Assembly: GCF_029264495.1 (NCBI RefSeq) | Contig: NZ_JARIBH010000030.1 | Location: forward strand, 1 to 64,000 | Length of the DNA stretch: 64,000 nucleotides | Direction of reading: 5' to 3' | Source of the DNA: Peptacetobacter sp. | GTDB taxonomy: Bacteria; Bacillota; Clostridia; Peptostreptococcales; Peptostreptococcaceae | In this document: positions 3,256-20,137 of the stretch, in pieces | How positions within the stretch are numbered: the stretch's first letter is position 1 | Layout of the letters: each line of letters starts with the position of its first letter | The notes under the pieces: generated by a model | What the model saw: the letters and a program-made list of their open reading frames with translations, nothing else | Databases searched by the model: none | Told to the model about the DNA's origin: nothing | Position numbers and translations under genes: made by a program

Positions 3256-5043
3256 GTGAACGTTAAACAAAGAATAGAAAAACTTCGTGAATTAATGAAA
3301 GAAAATAATATAGATTTATATGTAGTACCAACATCAGATTTCCATCAGACAGAATATGTTGGAGAACATTTTAAAGCAAGAAAATTTATAACAGGATTTA
3401 CAGGATCAGCAGGTACTGCAATAATAACTCTAGAAGAAGCTAGATTATGGACTGATGGTAGATATTTTACACAGGCAGAAAAACAGTTAGAAGGTTCAGG
3501 AGTTGAACTTATGAAAATGGCTGAGCCTGGTGTACCTACAATAAATGAATATTTAAAAAATACAATAGTAGAAGGAAATTGTTTAGGTTTTGATGGTAGA
3601 GTTGTAGCTATGGGAGATGGACAAAGCTATGAAGAGATAGTTAAATCTAAAAATGCTACAATAAAATATGAAGTAGATTTAATAGATGAAGTATGGACTG
3701 ATAGACCTGCATTATCAGAAAAACCAGCTTTTAAACTAGATGAAAAATATGCTGGAGAAAGTGCAGAAAGCAAAATAAATAGAATTCGTGAATATATGAA
3801 AAATTGTGGTGCAACATATCATACAGTAACTACTATAGATGATATATGTTGGACATTAAATATGCGTGGAGATGATATAGAATTCTTCCCATTAGTTTTA
3901 TCATATATGGTAGTTACAATGGACAAAGTTGATTTATATGTAGATGAAAATAAATTAACTGATGAAATGAAAAAAGAATTTGATGAAATAAATGTATTTG
4001 TTCATCCATATAATGATGTTTATGAAGATACTAAAAAAATACCAGCAGGAGAAACTATACTTGTAGACCCTGCAAGATTAAATTATGCAATATATAGTAA
4101 TATTCCTGAAGGTGTAGCTAAAGTTGAAGAAAGAAATCCAGAAGTTTTATTTAAAGCTATGAAAAATGATGTTGAAGTAGAAAATATGCGTAAAGCACAA
4201 ATAAAAGATTCTATAGCACATATCAAATTTATGAAATGGGTTAAAGAAAATGTAGAAAAAATGGAAATAACTGAAATGAGTGCTGCTGAAAAATTAGATG
4301 AATTCAGAATGGAGTTAGGTAATTTCATAAGACCAAGTTTTGAACCTATATCAGCATATGCAGATCATGCAGCTATGATGCATTACTGCTCAAGTCCAGA
4401 AACTGATGTAAGACTTAGAGAAGGAAGTGTCTATTTAACAGATACAGGAGCAGGATTCTGGGAAGGATCAACAGATATAACAAGAACATTTGTACTTGGA
4501 GAAGTATCAGATGAAATAAAAGAACATTTCACTTTAGTAGCTATGTGTAATTTACGTCTTGCAAATGCTACTTTCTTACAGGGATGTACAGGAATGAATT
4601 TAGATATATTAGCAAGAAAAGCTCTATGGGAAAGAGGTTTAGATTATAAATGTGGTACAGGACATGGTATGGGATACTTATTAAACATACATGAACCACC
4701 TACAAACTTTAGATGGAGATATAGAGCTGGAGATACTCATCCTATGGAACCAGGAATGATATTAACTGATGAGCCAGGTATATATATAGAAGGTTCTCAT
4801 GGTATACGTTTAGAAAATGAACTACTTGTTTGTATGTCAGATAAAAATGAATATGGACAATTTATGAATTTTGAAACTATAACTTATATACCATTTGATT
4901 TAGATGGAATTGTTCCAGAAGTTATGAATAGTGACGATATAAAATACTTAAATGCATATCATAAAACAGTATTTGAAAAAATATCTCCTTATTTAAATGA
5001 AGAAGAAACTGAATGGTTAAGAAAATATACAAGAGAAATATAA
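3256..5043 (+). CDS. pepP: Xaa-Pro aminopeptidase (M24 family, aminopeptidase P)
   Basis: Cytosolic metallopeptidase that removes the N-terminal residue from peptides with proline in second position. The 595-residue, three-domain length matches the long aminopeptidase P form (two creatinase-like N-terminal domains plus the M24 catalytic domain) rather than the short bacterial PepP. Expected metal ligands are visible in order: two Asp in TDTGAGFWEGSTDITRT (near 396 and 407), His in GTGHGMG (near 470), and Glu in DEPGIY and in RLENELL. The start is GTG, with GGGAGG 9 nt upstream. It probably processes proline peptides delivered by the adjacent POT transporter. No signal peptide is seen. Confidence 0.93.
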   Translation: MNVKQRIEKLRELMKENNIDLYVVPTSDFHQTEYVGEHFKARKFITGFTGSAGTAIITLEEARLWTDGRYFTQAEKQLEGSGVELMKMAEPGVPTINEYLKNTIVEGNCLGFDGRVVAMGDGQSYEEIVKSKNATIKYEVDLIDEVWTDRPALSEKPAFKLDEKYAGESAESKINRIREYMKNCGATYHTVTTIDDICWTLNMRGDDIEFFPLVLSYMVVTMDKVDLYVDENKLTDEMKKEFDEINVFVHPYNDVYEDTKKIPAGETILVDPARLNYAIYSNIPEGVAKVEERNPEVLFKAMKNDVEVENMRKAQIKDSIAHIKFMKWVKENVEKMEITEMSAAEKLDEFRMELGNFIRPSFEPISAYADHAAMMHYCSSPETDVRLREGSVYLTDTGAGFWEGSTDITRTFVLGEVSDEIKEHFTLVAMCNLRLANATFLQGCTGMNLDILARKALWERGLDYKCGTGHGMGYLLNIHEPPTNFRWRYRAGDTHPMEPGMILTDEPGIYIEGSHGIRLENELLVCMSDKNEYGQFMNFETITYIPFDLDGIVPEVMNSDDIKYLNAYHKTVFEKISPYLNEEETEWLRKYTREI

Positions 5044-5050
5044 TTTAAAG

Positions 5051-5092
5051 AAAGACCTATTTGATATATAAATCAAATGGGTCTTTTGTATT
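5051..5092 (+). terminator. Rho-independent terminator
   Basis: AAAGACCTATTTGAT / ATCAAATGGGTCTTT stem and T-rich tail after pepP. Confidence 0.88.
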
Positions 5093-5224
5093 AATCGTAA
5101 TATAGGAAATTGTTACATAAAATTCAACATATGTAACTTTTTATATTTATAAACATATAAAAATAGCAAAAATGACATAAAAACATAGAAAATAGTATAT
5201 TTTTTTGTTAAATACGGGTTAAAA

Positions 5225-6528: not shown

Positions 6529-8652
6529 ATGAAAAGTGTATTAAAAAAAATAGCAACTATAACAATGGCTATGATGTTAGTAATAGGAAGTATTTCTTAT
6601 AAAAGTACATCATATGCACAAGAAAAAGAAATGAGAGCAGCTTGGGTATCTTCGGTATATAACTTAGATTGGCCCAAAACAAAAAATAATGCATCAAAAC
6701 AAAAATCAGAATTAATACAGTTAATGGACAAATTAAAAGGATGTGGTATAAATACAATAGTATTACAAGTAAGACCAGAATCAGATGCATTGTATAAATC
6801 ATCTATAAATCCTTGGTCTAAATATTTAACTGGAACACAAGGTAAAAATCCAGGATATGATCCTTTGGAATTTGCAGTAAGTGAAGCTCATAAAAGAGGA
6901 ATGGATATACATGCATGGTTTAATCCATATAGAGTTACATCATCAGGTACAGATTTAAATTCACTTGTACCATCTCATCCAGCTAGAAAAAATCCAAGTT
7001 GGGTTATAAAATATAATGGAAAAATGTATTATGATCCAGGTAATCCTCAAGTAGTAGACTATATTGTTAGAACAATAAAAGAAGTAGTAGACAATTATAA
7101 TATAGATGGTGTACATTTTGATGATTATTTCTATCCATCATCATCATTCCCAGATAATGTTTCATATGATAAGTATGGAAAGGGTCAGAATAGAGATAAT
7201 TGGAGAAGAGAAAATGTAAATACATTATTAAGAAAAGTAAAAGCTGTAGTAAATACTAAAAAAGGATGTGAATTTGGAGTTAGTCCATTTGGTATATGGA
7301 GAAATAAATCAACATCTTGTCCAGATGGTTCAGAAACTTCAGGAAGTCAATCATATACAAATATGTATGCTGATTCAAGAACTTGGATAAGAAAAGGATA
7401 TGTAGATTATATAGTTCCTCAGATTTATTGGCCAATAGGTTTAAAAGTTGCAGATTACTCAAAACTTGTAAAATGGTGGGCAAACGAAGTAAAAGGATAT
7501 GATGTAGATCTTTACATAGGACAAGGAATATATAAAAAAGGTCAAGAAAGTTATGGCGGACAGAATATAGCTAAAGAAATAAAAAATCAAATAAGTATAA
7601 ATAAAAAATACGATACTGTAAAAGGTAGTATGTATTTCTCAGCTAGAGATATAGTGAATAATAGCAATATATATAATGACTTAAAGAGTATGTATGGCTC
7701 ATACAATGGAAGTCAAAATCAATCAAATACAAAATTACCACAAGTTACAGAAATTCTAGGAAGAGATAGATATGATACAGCTATAAAAATAAGTAAAAAG
7801 GGTTGGAATTCATCATCTAAAGTTGTAATAGTAAATGGATATAATGAGCTAGAAGGAATAATAGCAAATCCACTTGCATCTGTATATAATTCACCTATAC
7901 TTTTAGTTGATAATAGCAAAGTAAAAAATGAAGTACTATCAGAAATAAAAAGATTAAATCCATCAGAAATAGTTATATCAGGAGTTAATAATTCAATAAG
8001 TAGTGTATCAGAAAATATTATACACAATGCTGTTCCTAATGCTAAAATAAAAAGAATTTCTGGAACAGATATTTCAGATTTATCTATGAATATAGCAAAA
8101 GAAATAGACTGTTTAAAAAATGTAAATAAAATTTATATAGCTGGTGAAAAAGGTGAAGCAGATGCTTTATCAATAGTATCAAAAGCAGCAGAAGAAAAAG
8201 CTCCTATAATAGTGACAAATAAAAATTACATAAATTCAAATGTGAAAAATTGGATATCATCAAATGATATTAAAACAGCATATTTTTTAGGTGGAGATGA
8301 AGTTTTATCAAATAATATACTAAATGAAATAAATTCTATAGTATCAGAAAATGTTTTAAACAACAGAATTGGTGGTGCTAATAGGAATCAGACTAATGCT
8401 AGAGTTATAAAAAAATTATATACTCAAAATGAATATAATACTGTATTTGTTACGAAAAATAGACCACTTGTAGATGCAATAAGTGTTGGTGCTTATGCAG
8501 CAAGAACTAAATCACCTATAGTAATAGCGGGACAATCTTTAGATACAGAACAAATAAATATACTTAATTCTAAAAAATCAAATTGTGTATTTAGAATTGG
8601 TGGAGGAATAGTTAATTCTAGTTTTAATAAAATTTTAGAAAGCTTAAAATAG
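6529..8652 (+). CDS. Secreted GHL10-family glycoside hydrolase-like protein with three CWB2 (CW_binding_2) repeats
   Basis: A signal peptide of about 30 residues (ending SYA) precedes a GHL10/YngK-type (COG1649) TIM-barrel domain spanning about 33-385. Its opening, EMRAAWVSSVYNLDWP, and the motifs WFNPYR, DGVHFDDYFYP and PQIYW are characteristic. Residues from about 405 to the end form three PF04122-type repeats (ILGRDRYDTA; RISGTD; RIGGANRNQTNA). In C. difficile such triplets anchor proteins non-covalently to a cell-wall polymer. The substrate is unknown; a glycan such as peptidoglycan is plausible. The start has AAGGAGG upstream. The L,D-transpeptidase at 48243 carries a similar CWB2 triplet, so both probably sit on the same wall polymer. 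Confidence 0.9.
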   Translation: MKSVLKKIATITMAMMLVIGSISYKSTSYAQEKEMRAAWVSSVYNLDWPKTKNNASKQKSELIQLMDKLKGCGINTIVLQVRPESDALYKSSINPWSKYLTGTQGKNPGYDPLEFAVSEAHKRGMDIHAWFNPYRVTSSGTDLNSLVPSHPARKNPSWVIKYNGKMYYDPGNPQVVDYIVRTIKEVVDNYNIDGVHFDDYFYPSSSFPDNVSYDKYGKGQNRDNWRRENVNTLLRKVKAVVNTKKGCEFGVSPFGIWRNKSTSCPDGSETSGSQSYTNMYADSRTWIRKGYVDYIVPQIYWPIGLKVADYSKLVKWWANEVKGYDVDLYIGQGIYKKGQESYGGQNIAKEIKNQISINKKYDTVKGSMYFSARDIVNNSNIYNDLKSMYGSYNGSQNQSNTKLPQVTEILGRDRYDTAIKISKKGWNSSSKVVIVNGYNELEGIIANPLASVYNSPILLVDNSKVKNEVLSEIKRLNPSEIVISGVNNSISSVSENIIHNAVPNAKIKRISGTDISDLSMNIAKEIDCLKNVNKIYIAGEKGEADALSIVSKAAEEKAPIIVTNKNYINSNVKNWISSNDIKTAYFLGGDEVLSNNILNEINSIVSENVLNNRIGGANRNQTNARVIKKLYTQNEYNTVFVTKNRPLVDAISVGAYAARTKSPIVIAGQSLDTEQINILNSKKSNCVFRIGGGIVNSSFNKILESLK

Positions 8653-8687
8653 AGAAGAGATTAAATTATTAAAAGAAATATAATAAT

Positions 8688-8726
8688 AAAAAATCCTATG
8701 AAATTAAATTTCATAGGATTTTTTTA
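8688..8726. terminator. Bidirectional terminator between convergent genes
   Basis: AAATCCTATGAAATT / AATTTCATAGGATTT stem, with A tract before and T tract after. It serves the CWB2 gene (+) and the LCP gene (-). Confidence 0.92.
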
Positions 8727-8750
8727 TTACGACACATAATATACAAATTT

Positions 8751-11707: not shown

Positions 11708-11742
11708 AAAGAATGGCTAAAAAAGTAAATTGGAGGAATAAA

Positions 11743-12534
11743 ATGATAAAACTTATTGTGACTGATTTAGATGGTACAATATTAGATAATAGTGGTAATC
11801 TTAATGAAGAATTTGAAGCTGTCTTTAATGAAATTGATAAAAAAGGAATAATATTTATGGCTGCAAGTGGAAGACAATACCCTAGCCTTCTTAGAACATT
11901 TGAATCAGTAAAAGACAAGATGATGTACATAGCAGAAAATGGTACTTTTGCAGTATATAAAGGGAAAGAATTATTATGTGATCCTATTGATAAAGAAAGT
12001 GTAAATGAAATAATAGATTTTGCAAGAAAATCAAAAACAATGGAAATCCTTGTAAATACTAAATATACAGCCTATGTAGAGTGTAAGGATGAAGAATTTT
12101 TAGAAACATTAAAAATTTATTGTGCAGATGTAACAGTAGTTGATGATTTAAAAGAAGTTAATGAAGAAATTTTAAAAGTGTCTATATATGATAGAGAGCT
12201 TATAATAAACAATTGCAAACCTTATTTTGATAAATTTGGTGAAAGAATGAGTGTTTGTACATCTGGAGAACATTGGTTAGATATAATGAAAAAAGGTGTT
12301 ACAAAAGGAAAGGCTTTAGAGACGATAAAAAAAGAATATGGATTAAAAGATGATGAAATAATGATATTTGGAGATCAAATGAATGATTTAGAACTTATAG
12401 AGTGTGGGTACTATAGTTATGCTATGGAAAATGCTATTGATGAATTAAAAGAAAAGGCTAGATTTATAGCTGGAAGAAATGATGAAAATGGAGTATTGGA
12501 AAAGATAAAAGAAGTTTTAGATATAACTATATAA
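11743..12534 (+). CDS. Cof-type HAD-superfamily phosphatase
   Basis: Cytosolic phosphatase of the HAD IIB (Cof) group; substrates are typically sugar phosphates or similar small metabolites and cannot be fixed from sequence. It shows motif I DLDGTI with nucleophile and acid/base Asp, motif II-type AASGRQ, a conserved Lys in the KGVTKGKAL segment, and motif IV GDQMNDLEL. The length of 263 residues is normal. I start at ATG 11743 (IKLIVTDLDG follows), which has GGAGG at the right distance, and not at 11713. It stands alone with its own promoter and terminator. Confidence 0.9.
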   Translation: MIKLIVTDLDGTILDNSGNLNEEFEAVFNEIDKKGIIFMAASGRQYPSLLRTFESVKDKMMYIAENGTFAVYKGKELLCDPIDKESVNEIIDFARKSKTMEILVNTKYTAYVECKDEEFLETLKIYCADVTVVDDLKEVNEEILKVSIYDRELIINNCKPYFDKFGERMSVCTSGEHWLDIMKKGVTKGKALETIKKEYGLKDDEIMIFGDQMNDLELIECGYYSYAMENAIDELKEKARFIAGRNDENGVLEKIKEVLDITI

Positions 12535-12603: not shown

Positions 12604-13100
12604 TATAAAAATTATTTTTAGTATTACATATTAAATTAATCTTGAAAATATGCATTAAATGATAAAATATATTCAAATTCAATATATAAAATAGTATAAA
12701 TTGTAAATTATAAAATATATTACCATACATATAGTTAAAAAAATAACTATTTTTAAAATATAAAATATGAAAAAAATAAAAAAATAATAAAAATGGATAC
12801 AACTTATAACAAAGATGTAGGTTGTTGAATAAATAAAGATTATTCAGAAAATTTATAAAATAAATATTATTATGACTTGAAAGATAAGTCAAAGAGAGAA
12901 TTTTTCTTGTAAAAATGGATAAAAATGGATATTTTACCTAATTATTAAAATTGTATAAAAAAATAAAAAAATTTATTACAATTTATCGAAAAAGGCTTTA
13001 CTTTTTGGAATATTTTTGTTAAACTATAATCAAAGAAAAAGATAAATAAATATCAAACAAGATTTAAAATATATTGTTTATATAAATGGAGGGGACAGTT
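12604..13100. other. AT-rich intergenic region upstream of the PIITS-repeat gene
   Basis: I see no gene here. The minus-strand ORF at 12590-12892 is low complexity (Tyr/Phe/Leu/Asn) with no ribosome binding site and is rejected. A -10 TATAAT at 13025-13030 with only a poor -35 (TTTTTG) 17 nt upstream probably drives the next gene, perhaps with an activator. Short repeats of AAAATGGATA occur near 12913-12935. Confidence 0.6.
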
Positions 13101-13523
13101 ATGAAAAAGCTAAAAGTAAAAAAAATATTAGTATCAGCAATTACAGCAGTGGTATTAGCATCAGGAGTTGGTCTTCAAGGTGTTAGTGCAATGGAAAGAG
13201 TAAGTGAAAATACTAATTATCTAAAGCCAATAATAACATCAAGACCTTCAGATTTAAAAGAAGCAGACAAAAATACAATAAAAATATCTTTAGATATTGA
13301 TGAAATGAGTCCAATAATAACATCAAGAAATTTTATTAAAGAAGAAATAAAAAATGATGATTTAGAATTAAATAAAGTAGCTGAAAAAGATATAATGAAT
13401 CCAATAATAACATCAAGAGATTTTATTAATAAGGAAGAAAAAATGGATATAAAAACAACAGCATCAAATTATGATGTTATGAATCCAATAATAACATCTG
13501 AAACTATCTTATCTCACAAATAG
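13101..13523 (+). CDS. Small secreted protein with four PIITS(R/E) repeats; function unknown
   Basis: I do not recognise a family. The chosen start is ATG 13101 (GGAGGGG upstream), not 13086, giving 140 residues. A signal peptide ends near VSA (residue 30). The mature part of about 110 residues is acidic and charged and holds four copies of a hydrophobic core: PIITSR at 43-48, 71-76 and 101-106, and PIITSE at 129-134. The last two are preceded by MN, and the second and third are followed by a Phe-containing RNF/RDF. Spacing is 28, 30 and 28 residues. Repeated short cores in charged linkers suggest either a multi-copy peptide precursor or a repeated binding motif; this is inference. The gene is flanked by its own terminator. 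Confidence 0.75.
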   Translation: MKKLKVKKILVSAITAVVLASGVGLQGVSAMERVSENTNYLKPIITSRPSDLKEADKNTIKISLDIDEMSPIITSRNFIKEEIKNDDLELNKVAEKDIMNPIITSRDFINKEEKMDIKTTASNYDVMNPIITSETILSHK

Positions 13524-13686: not shown

Positions 13687-14766
13687 ATGACAACGAATAA
13701 TAATAGTAAAAAATCAAAAAAAAGTAATGTTATATATATAGACAGAAAAAGAAATGAAAAAGTAAATACAAATAAAAATAATTTATCTAAAAAAAGCAAA
13801 GAACAAAAGAAAAATAATAATTTAAATAAAAATCATAATAAAGAAAAAGAAAATTCAAACAAAACAAAAAATAATAATTTAAAACAAAAATCAAGTCATA
13901 AAAAAATAAATAATAAGAAAAATAATTCAAAAAAAGTAAGTAATAACACAAAAAAAGATAATAATCCACAAAAACATAAAAGTAAAAAATTGAGAATAAA
14001 TAAAAAAATAAAAATAATTTTATCAATATTATTAGTAATAATAGTAGTATTTTTTGGAACAAAAGGTGTACAAAAAATAATGAATAAAGATACAAAATCT
14101 AGTGTAAGTATATCAAATACTAAAGATAATGAAAGTTTAGATAAAAATGAGATTGAGAAAAACCAATATGATTTAAAAGATGAAAAAAAAGATGTTTCAA
14201 AAAAATATAATATAGTAATAGATGCAGGTCATGGTGGTAATGACAAAGGTTCTATAGATAGCACTGATACAATATATGAAAAAGATATAGCTCTTCAAAT
14301 AGCGAAAAAAGTAGCATCTAGACTAGGAAGAGAATCAGATGTAAATATAACTATGACAAGAACAGAAGATAAGTATGTAAGTTTAGAAGAAAGAGCAGAA
14401 ATAGCTAAAAGAGCAAATGCAGATGCATTGATATCTATACATCTAAATGCTCAAAAAAAATTTGGAGATGCAAATGGATTAGAAACATGGTATAGAGGAG
14501 GAGCTACAGATGGATCTAAAGAACTTGCAGAATCAGTGCAACAAACTACATCAGCATATATAGATATAATGAATAGGGGTATTTTACAAAACAACTTTGA
14601 AATTTTAAGAGAAACTACAATGCCAGCAGTTTTAGTTGAATGTGGATTTATAACTAATGTATCTGATATGGAAAAAATTAAAAATAATAAATATCAGGAT
14701 ATGCTAGCTGAAGGTATAATGCAAGGAACGCTTTCATTTTTAGATAAGAAAAATGGAAAAAACTAA
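13687..14766 (+). CDS. Membrane-anchored N-acetylmuramoyl-L-alanine amidase (Amidase_3)
   Basis: Zinc enzyme that cuts the amide between MurNAc and L-Ala. Residues 1-110 are a Lys/Asn-rich low-complexity cytoplasmic segment. One transmembrane helix follows near 113-130 (ILSILLVIIVVFF), then a linker and the Amidase_3 domain from about 177. Zinc and catalytic motifs are IDAGHGG (His), the Glu of YEKDIAL, SIHLNA (His) and VLVECGF (Glu). It lacks a cleavable signal, so the catalytic domain stays tethered outside. It lies 44 nt before the CamA-like methyltransferase gene. From memory, an amidase also lies close to camA in C. difficile. The Lys/Asn tract is poly-A-rich DNA and may be prone to indels. 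Confidence 0.92.
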   Translation: MTTNNNSKKSKKSNVIYIDRKRNEKVNTNKNNLSKKSKEQKKNNNLNKNHNKEKENSNKTKNNNLKQKSSHKKINNKKNNSKKVSNNTKKDNNPQKHKSKKLRINKKIKIILSILLVIIVVFFGTKGVQKIMNKDTKSSVSISNTKDNESLDKNEIEKNQYDLKDEKKDVSKKYNIVIDAGHGGNDKGSIDSTDTIYEKDIALQIAKKVASRLGRESDVNITMTRTEDKYVSLEERAEIAKRANADALISIHLNAQKKFGDANGLETWYRGGATDGSKELAESVQQTTSAYIDIMNRGILQNNFEILRETTMPAVLVECGFITNVSDMEKIKNNKYQDMLAEGIMQGTLSFLDKKNGKN

Positions 14767-14810: not shown

Positions 14811-16604
14811 ATGGATAAATTTGAAGATTCTAGAATATACGAAAAAAGTTTAGATATAGAAAAAAGAAAAAGATATGGAATATATTATACACCAAAAGAA
14901 GTAGTAGAATATATTGTAGATGATACTATAAAAGATATTGATGTAATAGAAAATCCATGTCCAAAAATTTTAGATTCATCATGTGGTTGTGGAAACTTTT
15001 TATTAGAAGTATTCGAAAAATTAAAGATTAAATTTATTAAAAACTCAGATAAACTATTAGAAAAATATAATAATGATATATTTAAAGAAGAAAATATACC
15101 TAAATATATTCTCGAAAACTGTATCTATGCTACTGATATAGATAAAAAAGCAGTTGAAATTGCTAAAAAATTATTATTAGAAAAAGCAAATATAGAAAGA
15201 AATGAAAATGTAAAATTAAATATATATATAGAAGATGGGTTAAAAATAAAATGGAATACTAAATTTGATGTAATAATAGGAAATCCTCCATATGTAGGAC
15301 ATAAACATCTAACAAAAGAATATAAAGAATTTATATTAGAAGAATACAAAGATGTTTATAAAGATAAATCAGATTTATATTTTTGCTTTTATAAAAATTC
15401 ATTAGATATATTAAAAGACAATGGTGTAATACATCTTATAACGCCAAGGTATTTTTTAGAAAGTATGTCAGCATTTCTTTTAAGAGAATATATACAAAAA
15501 AATGCTGAAATAGAAGAATTAATAGATTTTTTAGGGGATGAAGTTTTTACTTATATAGGGATATCTGCTTGTATAATAAAAATGAGAAAAAAAGGATATG
15601 GAATAGAAAAAACTAATATTTATAGAAAAAAATCAGATAAATATGTATGTATGAAGAAAAGAAAAAGTGAGATATCAATAAAAGAATTAAAAGAAAAAGA
15701 TGAGATTTTTGAAAGGCTAATAATAGATACAGAAAAATTACAATCCAACTGGATTATAGCTAATGAAAAAGATATGGATTTATATTTAAAAATAGAAGAA
15801 AAAGCAAAATATAGATTATCTGATATAGCTGAGAGTTTTCAAGGAATAATAACTGGATGTGATAAAGCATTTATTCTAAAAAAAGATGACGATAGAATTA
15901 AAAATATAGACAGTAAACTATTAAAACAATGGGTAAAAAATAAAGATATAGATAAATATGTAATAAAAAATATAAATTATAAATTAATATATTCTAATGA
16001 TATAGATAATGATGAAGAATATGATTATGCTTTAGAAACATGTATAAAACCATATAAAAAAAAGTTAGAAAATAGAAGAGAATGCTTAAAAGGTATAAGA
16101 AAGTGGTATGAATTACAATGGGGAAGAGAAAAAAAGCTTTTTGAAAGAAAAAAAGTTATGTATCCTTATAAATCTAGAGATAATAAATTTGCACTAGATT
16201 ATGATAATTTATATAGTAGTGCAGATGTATATTCTTTTTATCTTAAAGAAGAATGTGAAAAGATTTTTTCTTATGAATATATAGTAGCATTATTAAACTC
16301 ATCTATTTATGATAGGTATTATAAAATAGGTGCGAAAAAGATGAGTAGAGGAATTTATGATTATTATCCAAATAAAGTTATGGATATAAAGATTTTAAAA
16401 GGAGATAATTATAAAAAAATAGAAAATTATTCTAAAAAAATTATGGAAAAAAAAGATGATATATTAGATAATATAAATAATAGCATTCAAAAAAGTACAT
16501 TAGAAAAAGAAAAATATTTATTAGAAAATAAAAAAAAATCTGATGAAATAAAAGAGTTAATAAAAGATATAGACTTATTAATAGAAGAAGATATTTTTAA
16601 TTAA
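14811..16604 (+). CDS. camA: Orphan DNA adenine-N6 methyltransferase, CamA-like
   Basis: Type II-like N6-adenine methyltransferase with a C-terminal target recognition domain and no restriction partner nearby. The N-terminal GIYYTPKEVVEYIV is followed by motif I LDSSCGCGNFLLEV (SAM binding, about 54-67) and catalytic NPPY at 158-161. The C-terminal half holds FQGIITGCDKAFIL, ENRREC..GIRKWYELQWG and SSADVYSF, which I recognise from C. difficile CamA, the CAAAAA-specific methylase that affects sporulation and biofilm. The 597-residue length is close to CamA (about 577). The order amidase, methyltransferase, patatin, ptsH, ptsI matches what I recall of the C. difficile camA locus. Target specificity here is inferred, not shown. 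Confidence 0.88.
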   Translation: MDKFEDSRIYEKSLDIEKRKRYGIYYTPKEVVEYIVDDTIKDIDVIENPCPKILDSSCGCGNFLLEVFEKLKIKFIKNSDKLLEKYNNDIFKEENIPKYILENCIYATDIDKKAVEIAKKLLLEKANIERNENVKLNIYIEDGLKIKWNTKFDVIIGNPPYVGHKHLTKEYKEFILEEYKDVYKDKSDLYFCFYKNSLDILKDNGVIHLITPRYFLESMSAFLLREYIQKNAEIEELIDFLGDEVFTYIGISACIIKMRKKGYGIEKTNIYRKKSDKYVCMKKRKSEISIKELKEKDEIFERLIIDTEKLQSNWIIANEKDMDLYLKIEEKAKYRLSDIAESFQGIITGCDKAFILKKDDDRIKNIDSKLLKQWVKNKDIDKYVIKNINYKLIYSNDIDNDEEYDYALETCIKPYKKKLENRRECLKGIRKWYELQWGREKKLFERKKVMYPYKSRDNKFALDYDNLYSSADVYSFYLKEECEKIFSYEYIVALLNSSIYDRYYKIGAKKMSRGIYDYYPNKVMDIKILKGDNYKKIENYSKKIMEKKDDILDNINNSIQKSTLEKEKYLLENKKKSDEIKELIKDIDLLIEEDIFN

Positions 16605-18080: not shown

Positions 18081-18125
18081 TATAGATAATAAATAAAATT
18101 GAAAATATTTCAGGAGGAATTTAAA

Positions 18126-18386
18126 ATGGAAAAAAAATTAACAGTTGTAAATGCAACAGGATTACACGCTAGACCAGCAGGAATGTTCGTTAAAGGAGCA
18201 TCTGAATTCAAATCAACAGTAGAAATAGAATCAAATGGTAAAAAAGTAAACGCTAAATCAATAATGGGTGTAATGAGTTTAGGATTATCAAAAGGAACTG
18301 AATTTACACTAATAGCTAATGGAGAAGATGAAGAAGCAGCTATAGCTAAATTATCTGAAATGGTTGAATCAGGATTTGGTGAATAA
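18126..18386 (+). CDS. ptsH: Phosphocarrier protein HPr
   Basis: Central phosphocarrier of the sugar phosphotransferase system, passing phosphate from enzyme I to the sugar-specific EIIA proteins. The chosen start is ATG 18126 with AGGAGG upstream, giving 86 residues; the track start at 18099 is too long. The active-site histidine is His14 in GLHARPA. The regulatory serine, phosphorylated by HPr kinase in Firmicutes, is Ser45 in KSIMGVMSL. It is co-transcribed with ptsI 38 nt downstream. A structured leader precedes it. Confidence 0.97.
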   Translation: MEKKLTVVNATGLHARPAGMFVKGASEFKSTVEIESNGKKVNAKSIMGVMSLGLSKGTEFTLIANGEDEEAAIAKLSEMVESGFGE

Positions 18387-18424: not shown

Positions 18425-20137
18425 ATGTCATTCAAAGGAACTGGAGCATCTCCTGGTGTAGCACTTGGGAAGGCTCTTGTAGTTGAACATAAAGAGCTTG
18501 TAATAGAAAAAAAATCAATAACAGATGTAGAAGCAGAAATATCTAAATTAAGAGAAGCTGTCGAAATATCAAAATCAGAACTTGAAAAAGTAAAAGAAAA
18601 AGCTGCAAAAGAATTAGGTGAAGAAGAAGCAGAAATATTTGGTGCACATCTTTTAGTTCTTGAAGATCCAGAGTTAACTGGAGCAGCAGAAGCAAAAATA
18701 ACAGAAGAAAAAGTTAATGCTGATTATGCATTAAATGAAATAAAAGAAATGTTTGTATCTATGTTCGAGTCAATGGATAACGAATATATGAGAGAAAGAG
18801 CAGCAGATATAAAAGACGTAACAAATAGAGTTTTAAGACATCTTTTAGGAATAAAAGTTGTAGATTTATCTGCATTAGATGAAGAAGTAGTTTTAATTGC
18901 TCACGATTTAACTCCGTCAGATACAGCAACAATGAATAAAAAAATGGTTTTAGGATTCCTTACAAATATAGGAGGAAGAACTTCTCATACTGCTATAATG
19001 GCAAGAACACTTGAAATTGCAGCTGTAGTAGGTCTTACTGATATAACAGAAAACGTTAAAGATGGAGATTTTGTTGTATTCAATGGAGATACTGGTGAAG
19101 TTATAGTAAATCCAGATGAAGAAACTAAAGCAGTTTATGCAGCTAAAAAAGCAGCATTTGAAGAAGAAAAGAAAGCATTAGAATTATTAAAAGGTAAAGA
19201 ATCTATAACACTAGATGGTAAAAAAGTTGAATTAGCTGGTAATATAGGTACACCAAATGATATAGAAGGTTTAATAAAAAATGATGCTGAAGGTGTAGGT
19301 CTATATAGAACAGAATTCTTATATATGGATTCAGATAAATTACCAGAAGAAGAAACTCAGTTTGAAGCATATAAAGCAGTATTAGAAGGAATGAGTGGAA
19401 AACCGATAGTTATAAGAACTCTTGATATAGGTGGAGATAAAAAATTAGATTATCTTCCTCTAGATGAAGAAATGAACCCATTCTTAGGATACAGAGCTAT
19501 AAGATTATGTTTAGATAGAACTGATATATTTAAAACTCAGTTAAGAGCACTATATAGAGCAAGTGTATATGGAAAATTAAGAATAATGTTCCCAATGATA
19601 TCTTCATTAGAAGAATTATTAAAAGCTAAAGAAGTAGTTAAAGAAGTACAAGCTGAACTTGATGCAGAAGGTATAGCATACTCTAAAGATGTTGAAATAG
19701 GTATGATGATAGAAGTACCATCAGCTGCAATAATATCAGATGTACTTGCTAAACACGTTGATTTCTTCTCAATAGGAACAAACGATTTAATACAGTACAC
19801 AACAGCTGTTGATAGAATGAATCAGAAAATAAGCTATCTTTATAATCAGTTCAACCCAGCAGTGTTAAGACTAATAAAATTAGTTATAGACAATGCTCAT
19901 AAAGAAGGAAAATGGGTAGGAATGTGTGGAGAAGCAGCAGGAGATCAAATGATGATACCAATACTTCTTGGATTTGGTCTTGATGAATTCTCAATGTCAC
20001 CAATATCAATACTTCCAGCTAGAAAATTAATAACTTCTGTTAATGAATCAGATATGAAAAAATTTGCTGAAGAAGTATTAACTATGGGAACAGCAGAAGA
20101 AATAAAAGCACACGTTGCAGAAACTTTTTGTAAATAA
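18425..20137 (+). CDS. ptsI: Phosphoenolpyruvate-protein phosphotransferase (PTS enzyme I)
   Basis: Autophosphorylates from PEP and transfers phosphate to HPr. At 570 residues it has the normal length: an N-terminal HPr-binding/swivel region, phospho-histidine His188 in GGRTSHTAIMA, and the C-terminal PEP-binding barrel with GVGLYRTEFLYM, RTLDIGGDK and the conserved Cys in GMCGEAAGD. The start is ATG after AGGAGG. It follows ptsH directly, in the standard order. The terminator at 20154 ends the operon. Confidence 0.97.
   Translation: MSFKGTGASPGVALGKALVVEHKELVIEKKSITDVEAEISKLREAVEISKSELEKVKEKAAKELGEEEAEIFGAHLLVLEDPELTGAAEAKITEEKVNADYALNEIKEMFVSMFESMDNEYMRERAADIKDVTNRVLRHLLGIKVVDLSALDEEVVLIAHDLTPSDTATMNKKMVLGFLTNIGGRTSHTAIMARTLEIAAVVGLTDITENVKDGDFVVFNGDTGEVIVNPDEETKAVYAAKKAAFEEEKKALELLKGKESITLDGKKVELAGNIGTPNDIEGLIKNDAEGVGLYRTEFLYMDSDKLPEEETQFEAYKAVLEGMSGKPIVIRTLDIGGDKKLDYLPLDEEMNPFLGYRAIRLCLDRTDIFKTQLRALYRASVYGKLRIMFPMISSLEELLKAKEVVKEVQAELDAEGIAYSKDVEIGMMIEVPSAAIISDVLAKHVDFFSIGTNDLIQYTTAVDRMNQKISYLYNQFNPAVLRLIKLVIDNAHKEGKWVGMCGEAAGDQMMIPILLGFGLDEFSMSPISILPARKLITSVNESDMKKFAEEVLTMGTAEEIKAHVAETFCK

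Follow-up and report, generated by a model that had tools for sequence, protein, structure and literature searches.

A CamA-family adenine methyltransferase gene conserved in Peptacetobacter, a lineage without Spo0A, SigF, SpoIIE and SpoIVA

The window (the whole stretch of DNA analysed, 64,000 nucleotides of a Peptacetobacter contig) contains an open reading frame that starts with ATG, occupies exactly positions 14811-16604 of the + strand and encodes a protein of 597 amino acids. The gene and its surroundings comprise the following features.

11713-12534, + strand: Cof-type HAD hydrolase, a conserved member of the block in Peptacetobacter, Peptostreptococcus and some Clostridioides
13687-14766, + strand: N-acetylmuramoyl-L-alanine amidase (Amidase_3), conserved upstream neighbour
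14811-16604, + strand: camA orthologue, gamma-class N6-adenine DNA methyltransferase of the CamA family (open reading frame, phmmer, Pfam, alignment)
14967-15008, + strand: SAM-binding motif I, residues 53-66, the LDSSCGCGNFLLEV region (alignment A1)
15282-15305, + strand: catalytic motif IV NPPY (residues 158-161) and the minor-groove contacts H164 and K165, CamA H171 and K172 (alignment; contact list of PMC8187626)
15750-16370, + strand: target-recognition domain, approximate limits (alignment; contact list of PMC8187626)
16629-17834, + strand: patatin-like phospholipase, conserved downstream neighbour
18099-18386, + strand: ptsH (HPr), conserved neighbour
18425-20137, + strand: ptsI (enzyme I), conserved neighbour

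The original prediction described the product as a CamA-type methyltransferase with motif I and NPPY, and its orthology to CamA is confirmed by database matches, synteny and phylogeny. Among solved structures, the best phmmer match is CamA of Clostridioides difficile (PDB 8cxz, 7lni; E 4e-181, residues 2-573), to which the window protein is 53% identical over 574 amino acids; the runner-up, M.BseCI, reaches only E 8e-23. Pfam assigns Eco57I/N6_Mtase and TaqI_C specificity domains. The catalytic motifs are present, namely an SxGxG-type motif I (DSSCGCGNFLLEV), NPPY as motif IV and the aromatic cage Y30/Y168/F253, and the catalytic residues Y30, N165, P166, P167, Y168, F200 and F253 (CamA numbering) are identical to those of the C. 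difficile enzyme. The numbering is that of the G004 protein, which shows one difference from the crystal-structure CamA across all 577 residues. The two enzymes share domains, base contacts, catalytic residues and orphan status, although the window protein is about 20 amino acids longer and its host is without the sporulation genes discussed below.

The amidase-camA-patatin-ptsHI neighbourhood was predicted to be conserved; the gene order is as stated, and the amidase-camA-patatin-ptsH-ptsI block recurs in nearly all core Peptostreptococcaceae genera. C. difficile also has this neighbourhood, but there two other genes separate the amidase from camA, whereas in the window the amidase is directly upstream. 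The four Peptostreptococcus genomes that keep camA have the order amidase-camA-ptsH-ptsI; the patatin gene has been lost from the block, with camA kept, in P. hominis (L045) as well as in the Peptostreptococcus loci. The window also encodes, in the interval separating the HAD hydrolase gene from that of the amidase, a small secreted protein (13086-13523, + strand) with four PIITSR/E repeats, of which congeners have five (L044, about 7145-7633) and about three (L045, about 4873-5160). It has no Pfam or NCBIfam match and may serve as the precursor from which repeated signalling peptides are made.

The residues of CamA that contact the bases of CAAAAA have been listed (PMC8187626). In an alignment of homologues from the family and from Clostridia, the window protein has the same residue as CamA at each of these 15 positions: H171, K172, Q346, I349, R425, Q438, W439, R441, Y455, K456, S472, A473, S514, I517 and Y521 (CamA numbering). 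Its target-recognition domain carries Q344, I347, R423, Q436, W437, R439, Y453, K454, S470, A471 and Y519, corresponding in this order to CamA Q346, I349, R425, Q438, W439, R441, Y455, K456, S472, A473 and Y521. Twelve of the 15 contacts do not vary among 37 core-family proteins, and ten do not vary among 94 CamA-type proteins of Clostridia. At positions 171, 438, 455 and 456, four distant paralogues, found in three further genera of the family, carry E, H, Q and R. M.BseCI (PDB 7qw5), which reads ATCGAT, shares with the window protein the gamma-class architecture of a methyltransferase and a C-terminal recognition domain, but does not keep the equivalents of Q346, R425, W439 and R441. Because the paralogues and M.BseCI differ at several contact sites, the comparison of base contacts is discriminating, and with all 15 contacts identical, recognition of CAAAAA is the best prediction from sequence for the window enzyme. 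The number of CAAAAA sites in the window is unremarkable (159 found, 172 expected).

The host had tentatively been supposed to be a non-sporulating Peptostreptococcus. The genus was mistaken, since the host belongs to Peptacetobacter, together with Peptacetobacter hominis, and Peptostreptococcus is the sister genus; the supposed lack of sporulation is supported by gene content. SpoIVA, full-length SpoIIE and Spo0A are absent from all three Peptacetobacter genomes (G000, G032, G033), and none of the three has a SigF above the cut-off. As controls, 51-54 other genomes of the family pass the cut-offs for SpoIVA, SpoIIE and SigF, and sporulating family members score for Spo0A. One of the Peptacetobacter genomes is a single contig of 2.52 Mb, so that the absence of these genes is not due to missing sequence. 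The description of P. hiranonis as spore-forming (PMC11747423) conflicts with this gene content. A lone diverged sigma factor resembling SigF/SigG is kept in spore-less Peptacetobacter, with neither spoIIAA nor spoIIAB beside it (L164, 4719-5471, - strand, in the genome of the window; L165, 6280-7098, - strand, in P. hominis); in the genome of the window its gene and a pilB-pilC-pilin-like operon are divergently oriented. Given the absence of Spo0A, SigF, SpoIIE and SpoIVA, the promotion of sporulation known for C. difficile CamA is not expected here. That phenotype is a trait of the C. difficile enzyme and does not define the family in sequence, and it is no ground for excluding the window protein from it.

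Matches at E<=1e-20 were found in 63 of 71 Peptostreptococcaceae genomes, of which 59 are CamA-type after removal of the four distant paralogues. In the CamA tree every genus with several members forms a clade, and Peptacetobacter and Peptostreptococcus are sisters, as they are in the rpoB tree, in which congeners stand in for the host because rpoB was not found in its own assembly. Seventeen of 20 strongly supported CamA splits recur in the rpoB tree, with two conflicts, and the distances of the two proteins are correlated (r=0.83; as high in 0 of 2000 permutations). CamA thus follows rpoB, is not grouped with mobile type IIG enzymes, and has been inherited vertically in the Peptostreptococcaceae. 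The genera g2, g21 and g22 have longer, mostly non-syntenic CamA-type forms. Tepidibacter and Alkalithermobacter have longer CamA-type proteins of 773-968 amino acids encoded away from the ptsHI locus (L064-L068, L071, L072, L076), with an N-terminal extension of 150-180 amino acids and in some cases also a C-terminal one, in which no PD-ExK motif was seen by eye. In G012 (L069, about 6991-8746) camA is spread over three frames, possibly as a pseudogene or through an assembly error.

The gene has also been lost. It is missing from five of nine Peptostreptococcus genomes, and in the four of these that were examined ptsH directly follows the amidase, which indicates clean loss; camA is therefore dispensable in the absence of sporulation. 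Across the family it is present in 52 of 54 genomes with SpoIVA versus 7 of 17 without, a comparison uncorrected for relatedness that points mainly to a role in sporulation. Two small genomes of genus g7 (L218, L219) have sporulation genes but no camA; at its usual site, from which it is missing, the amidase, patatin and ptsHI genes are close together, with a 114-aa gene between amidase and patatin in L218.

In Peptacetobacter, by contrast with those losses, camA is intact in all three genomes; stops seemingly present in the G032 gene proved to be an artefact of match limits, and its reading frame is intact at 615 amino acids. The dN/dS of camA, calculated for the window against its nearest congener, is 0.14, an approximate value because dS is 1.3; the neighbouring HAD hydrolase gene has 0.18 and patatin 0.10. 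The intact genes and this ratio, together with CAAAAAR methylation in other spore-less Clostridia (see below), make a role of camA beyond sporulation in Peptacetobacter well supported, though not proven. It is thus probable, and we hold it with good confidence, that the window gene encodes a CamA-family enzyme that was inherited vertically and is kept for regulation outside sporulation in the Peptacetobacter lineage. The main competing view is that the enzyme does methylate CAAAAA but now has no regulatory role, being a slowly decaying relic of a sporulating ancestor. The losses in Peptostreptococcus would agree with it, as would the terminal branches of Peptacetobacter and Peptostreptococcus in the CamA tree, which, when set against rpoB, look longer than those of Clostridioides. 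However, rpoB has diverged by 5% within Peptacetobacter, a span in which a neutral gene would have had time to break, and yet the three genes are unbroken, every contact residue is kept in the window protein and the dN/dS resembles that of the neighbours, which makes a relic unlikely.

If the gene is kept for regulation, the enzyme would bind asymmetrically to CAAAAA and, acting throughout the genome with no partner nuclease, add an N6 methyl group to the final adenine after flipping it out, as proposed from its identity to a crystallised enzyme, complete at the base contacts. The mark would probably alter how a transcription factor or polymerase gains access to a small number of promoters; an effect of this kind has been demonstrated at spoIIE in C. 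difficile (PMC13395437). Since the sporulation genes are absent, selection in Peptacetobacter would have to maintain the enzyme for functions in vegetative life or in association with the host; this agrees with the finding that in mice the fitness effect of C. difficile camA for the most part does not depend on sporulation (PMC13395437). CAAAAA sites upstream of 44 orthologue pairs of the window and a congener showed no excess of conservation over control A-rich hexamers, and so they do not single out a target promoter.

CamA-type genes extend beyond the family. A scan of genomes with alignment A1 collected 264 relatives. Of 291 sampled genomes of class Clostridia, 35 have CamA-type matches. 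Among the Clostridiaceae (genome group f44, taken as such because it behaves like named Clostridium loci), 91 of 147 genomes and 32 of 46 genera have a homologue. In G160, presumably the genome of Acetobacterium woodii, Spo0A and SigF are missing, and the homologue departs from CamA at just two of the 15 base contacts (S514G and I517L). According to published methylomes, m6A occurs in CAAAAAR in C. pasteurianum, C. ljungdahlii, C. autoethanogenum and E. limosum; in the spore-less A. woodii 98.9% of CAAAAAR sites are methylated, and the responsible enzyme, Awo_c14460, has been cloned (PMC6700114). A review of CAAAAAR methylomes remarks on the likeness to CAAAAA (PMC10745947). Homologues of the type of these orphan enzymes (C. 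pasteurianum CP6013_1459, A. woodii Awo_c14460) are about 34-43% related over the whole protein and have the same key contact residues as the window protein in the sequences examined. For the orphans of Clostridium and Acetobacterium, m6A is reported at the sixth position of the motif, which has an extra purine compared with CAAAAA, and the Clostridiaceae homologues adjoin the sigF operon, not ptsHI.

As CAAAAAR is the motif methylated by the wider family, the specificity of the window enzyme might have shifted to CAAAAAR or to CRAAAAR, motifs known from reports on Clostridium, Acetobacterium and Eubacterium. However, its equivalents of S514 and I517 are as in C. difficile, whereas those of the Clostridiaceae and of the probable A. 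woodii protein are mostly G and L, and a shift is accordingly rather improbable. One might guess that these two positions set the last base of the motif. CAAAAA itself remains the favoured prediction.

The enzyme was predicted to be an orphan, and this is borne out: Pfam detects no nuclease domain in the protein and no restriction gene among the annotated genes at 6.5-24 kb of the window, which are cell-wall, PTS and regulatory genes. The methyltransferase core is common to BREX PglX and type IIG Eco57I-type enzymes, but the window protein is half as long and scores far under the curated cut-offs. Identity with BREX PglX was rejected (79.6 bits against a curated cut-off of 500, with no brx genes nearby), as were a type IIG origin, on account of the missing fused nuclease domain, the length of 597 amino acids, the conserved synteny and the vertical tree, and a mobile origin, the phage and plasmid relatives being distant (<=33% identity among the matches listed). 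It is very improbable that the protein shields the DNA from a CAAAAA-specific restriction enzyme encoded at another locus, or that it is a type IIG restriction-modification protein in its own right, for although it belongs to the gamma-class Eco57I family, a class that also holds type IIG and BREX PglX enzymes, and further Eco57I-like genes exist elsewhere in its genome, it is a short protein without a nuclease, its gene sits at a conserved chromosomal site beside housekeeping genes and tracks rpoB, no plasmid or phage relative exceeds the above identity among the matches listed, and the CamA of C. difficile is an orphan enzyme (PMC8187626). The other Eco57I-family matches in the genome number four (G000 C87, C11, C57 and C88; L002-L005), and the one in L002 is part of a long open frame of 1361 aa resembling a helicase-methyltransferase.

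In the Clostridiaceae the homologue is located directly upstream of spoIIAA-spoIIAB-sigF, with one gene between in some species (L138, L146, L148, L157-L163). All 91 homologue-bearing genomes have sigF, and in 81 both genes are on one contig. In 67 of these 81 informative genomes sigF starts 0.9-4.1 kb downstream of the homologue on the same strand, and in ten more it is within 30 kb; the 67 cases represent one conserved arrangement and not independent events. A brief literature search found no report of this adjacency. CAAAAA is not enriched upstream of spoIIAA in Clostridiaceae (3 versus 5.7 expected). In C. difficile camA and sigF are far apart, and CamA raises sigma-F activity via one methylated site at spoIIE (PMC13395437). 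These observations lead us to favour, by a modest degree, the view that CamA is one branch of an old CAAAAA(R) epigenetic system of Clostridia whose gene in Clostridiaceae resides at the sigF operon. The C. difficile enzyme, though encoded at the ptsHI locus, would still act on sigma-F through spoIIE, and after the loss of sporulation in Peptacetobacter, in part of Peptostreptococcus and in Acetobacterium, the mark would have been kept for non-sporulation regulation, which could be isolated in these natural spore-less lineages.

CamA has been described as a C. difficile-specific enzyme (PMC8187626, PMC13395437), and the later of these papers argues from this for CamA as a drug target (PMC13395437). 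With the wide distribution of CamA-type genes and the published CAAAAAR methylation, that statement is untenable as written. Because camA occurs in most of the family, including the gut commensals Intestinibacter, Romboutsia and Peptacetobacter, a CamA inhibitor may not be selective. The conserved link between the homologue and the sigF operon suggests that control of early sporulation by methylation may far predate C. difficile. In species that have camA but have lost sporulation, other functions of CamA can be studied apart from its effect on sporulation.
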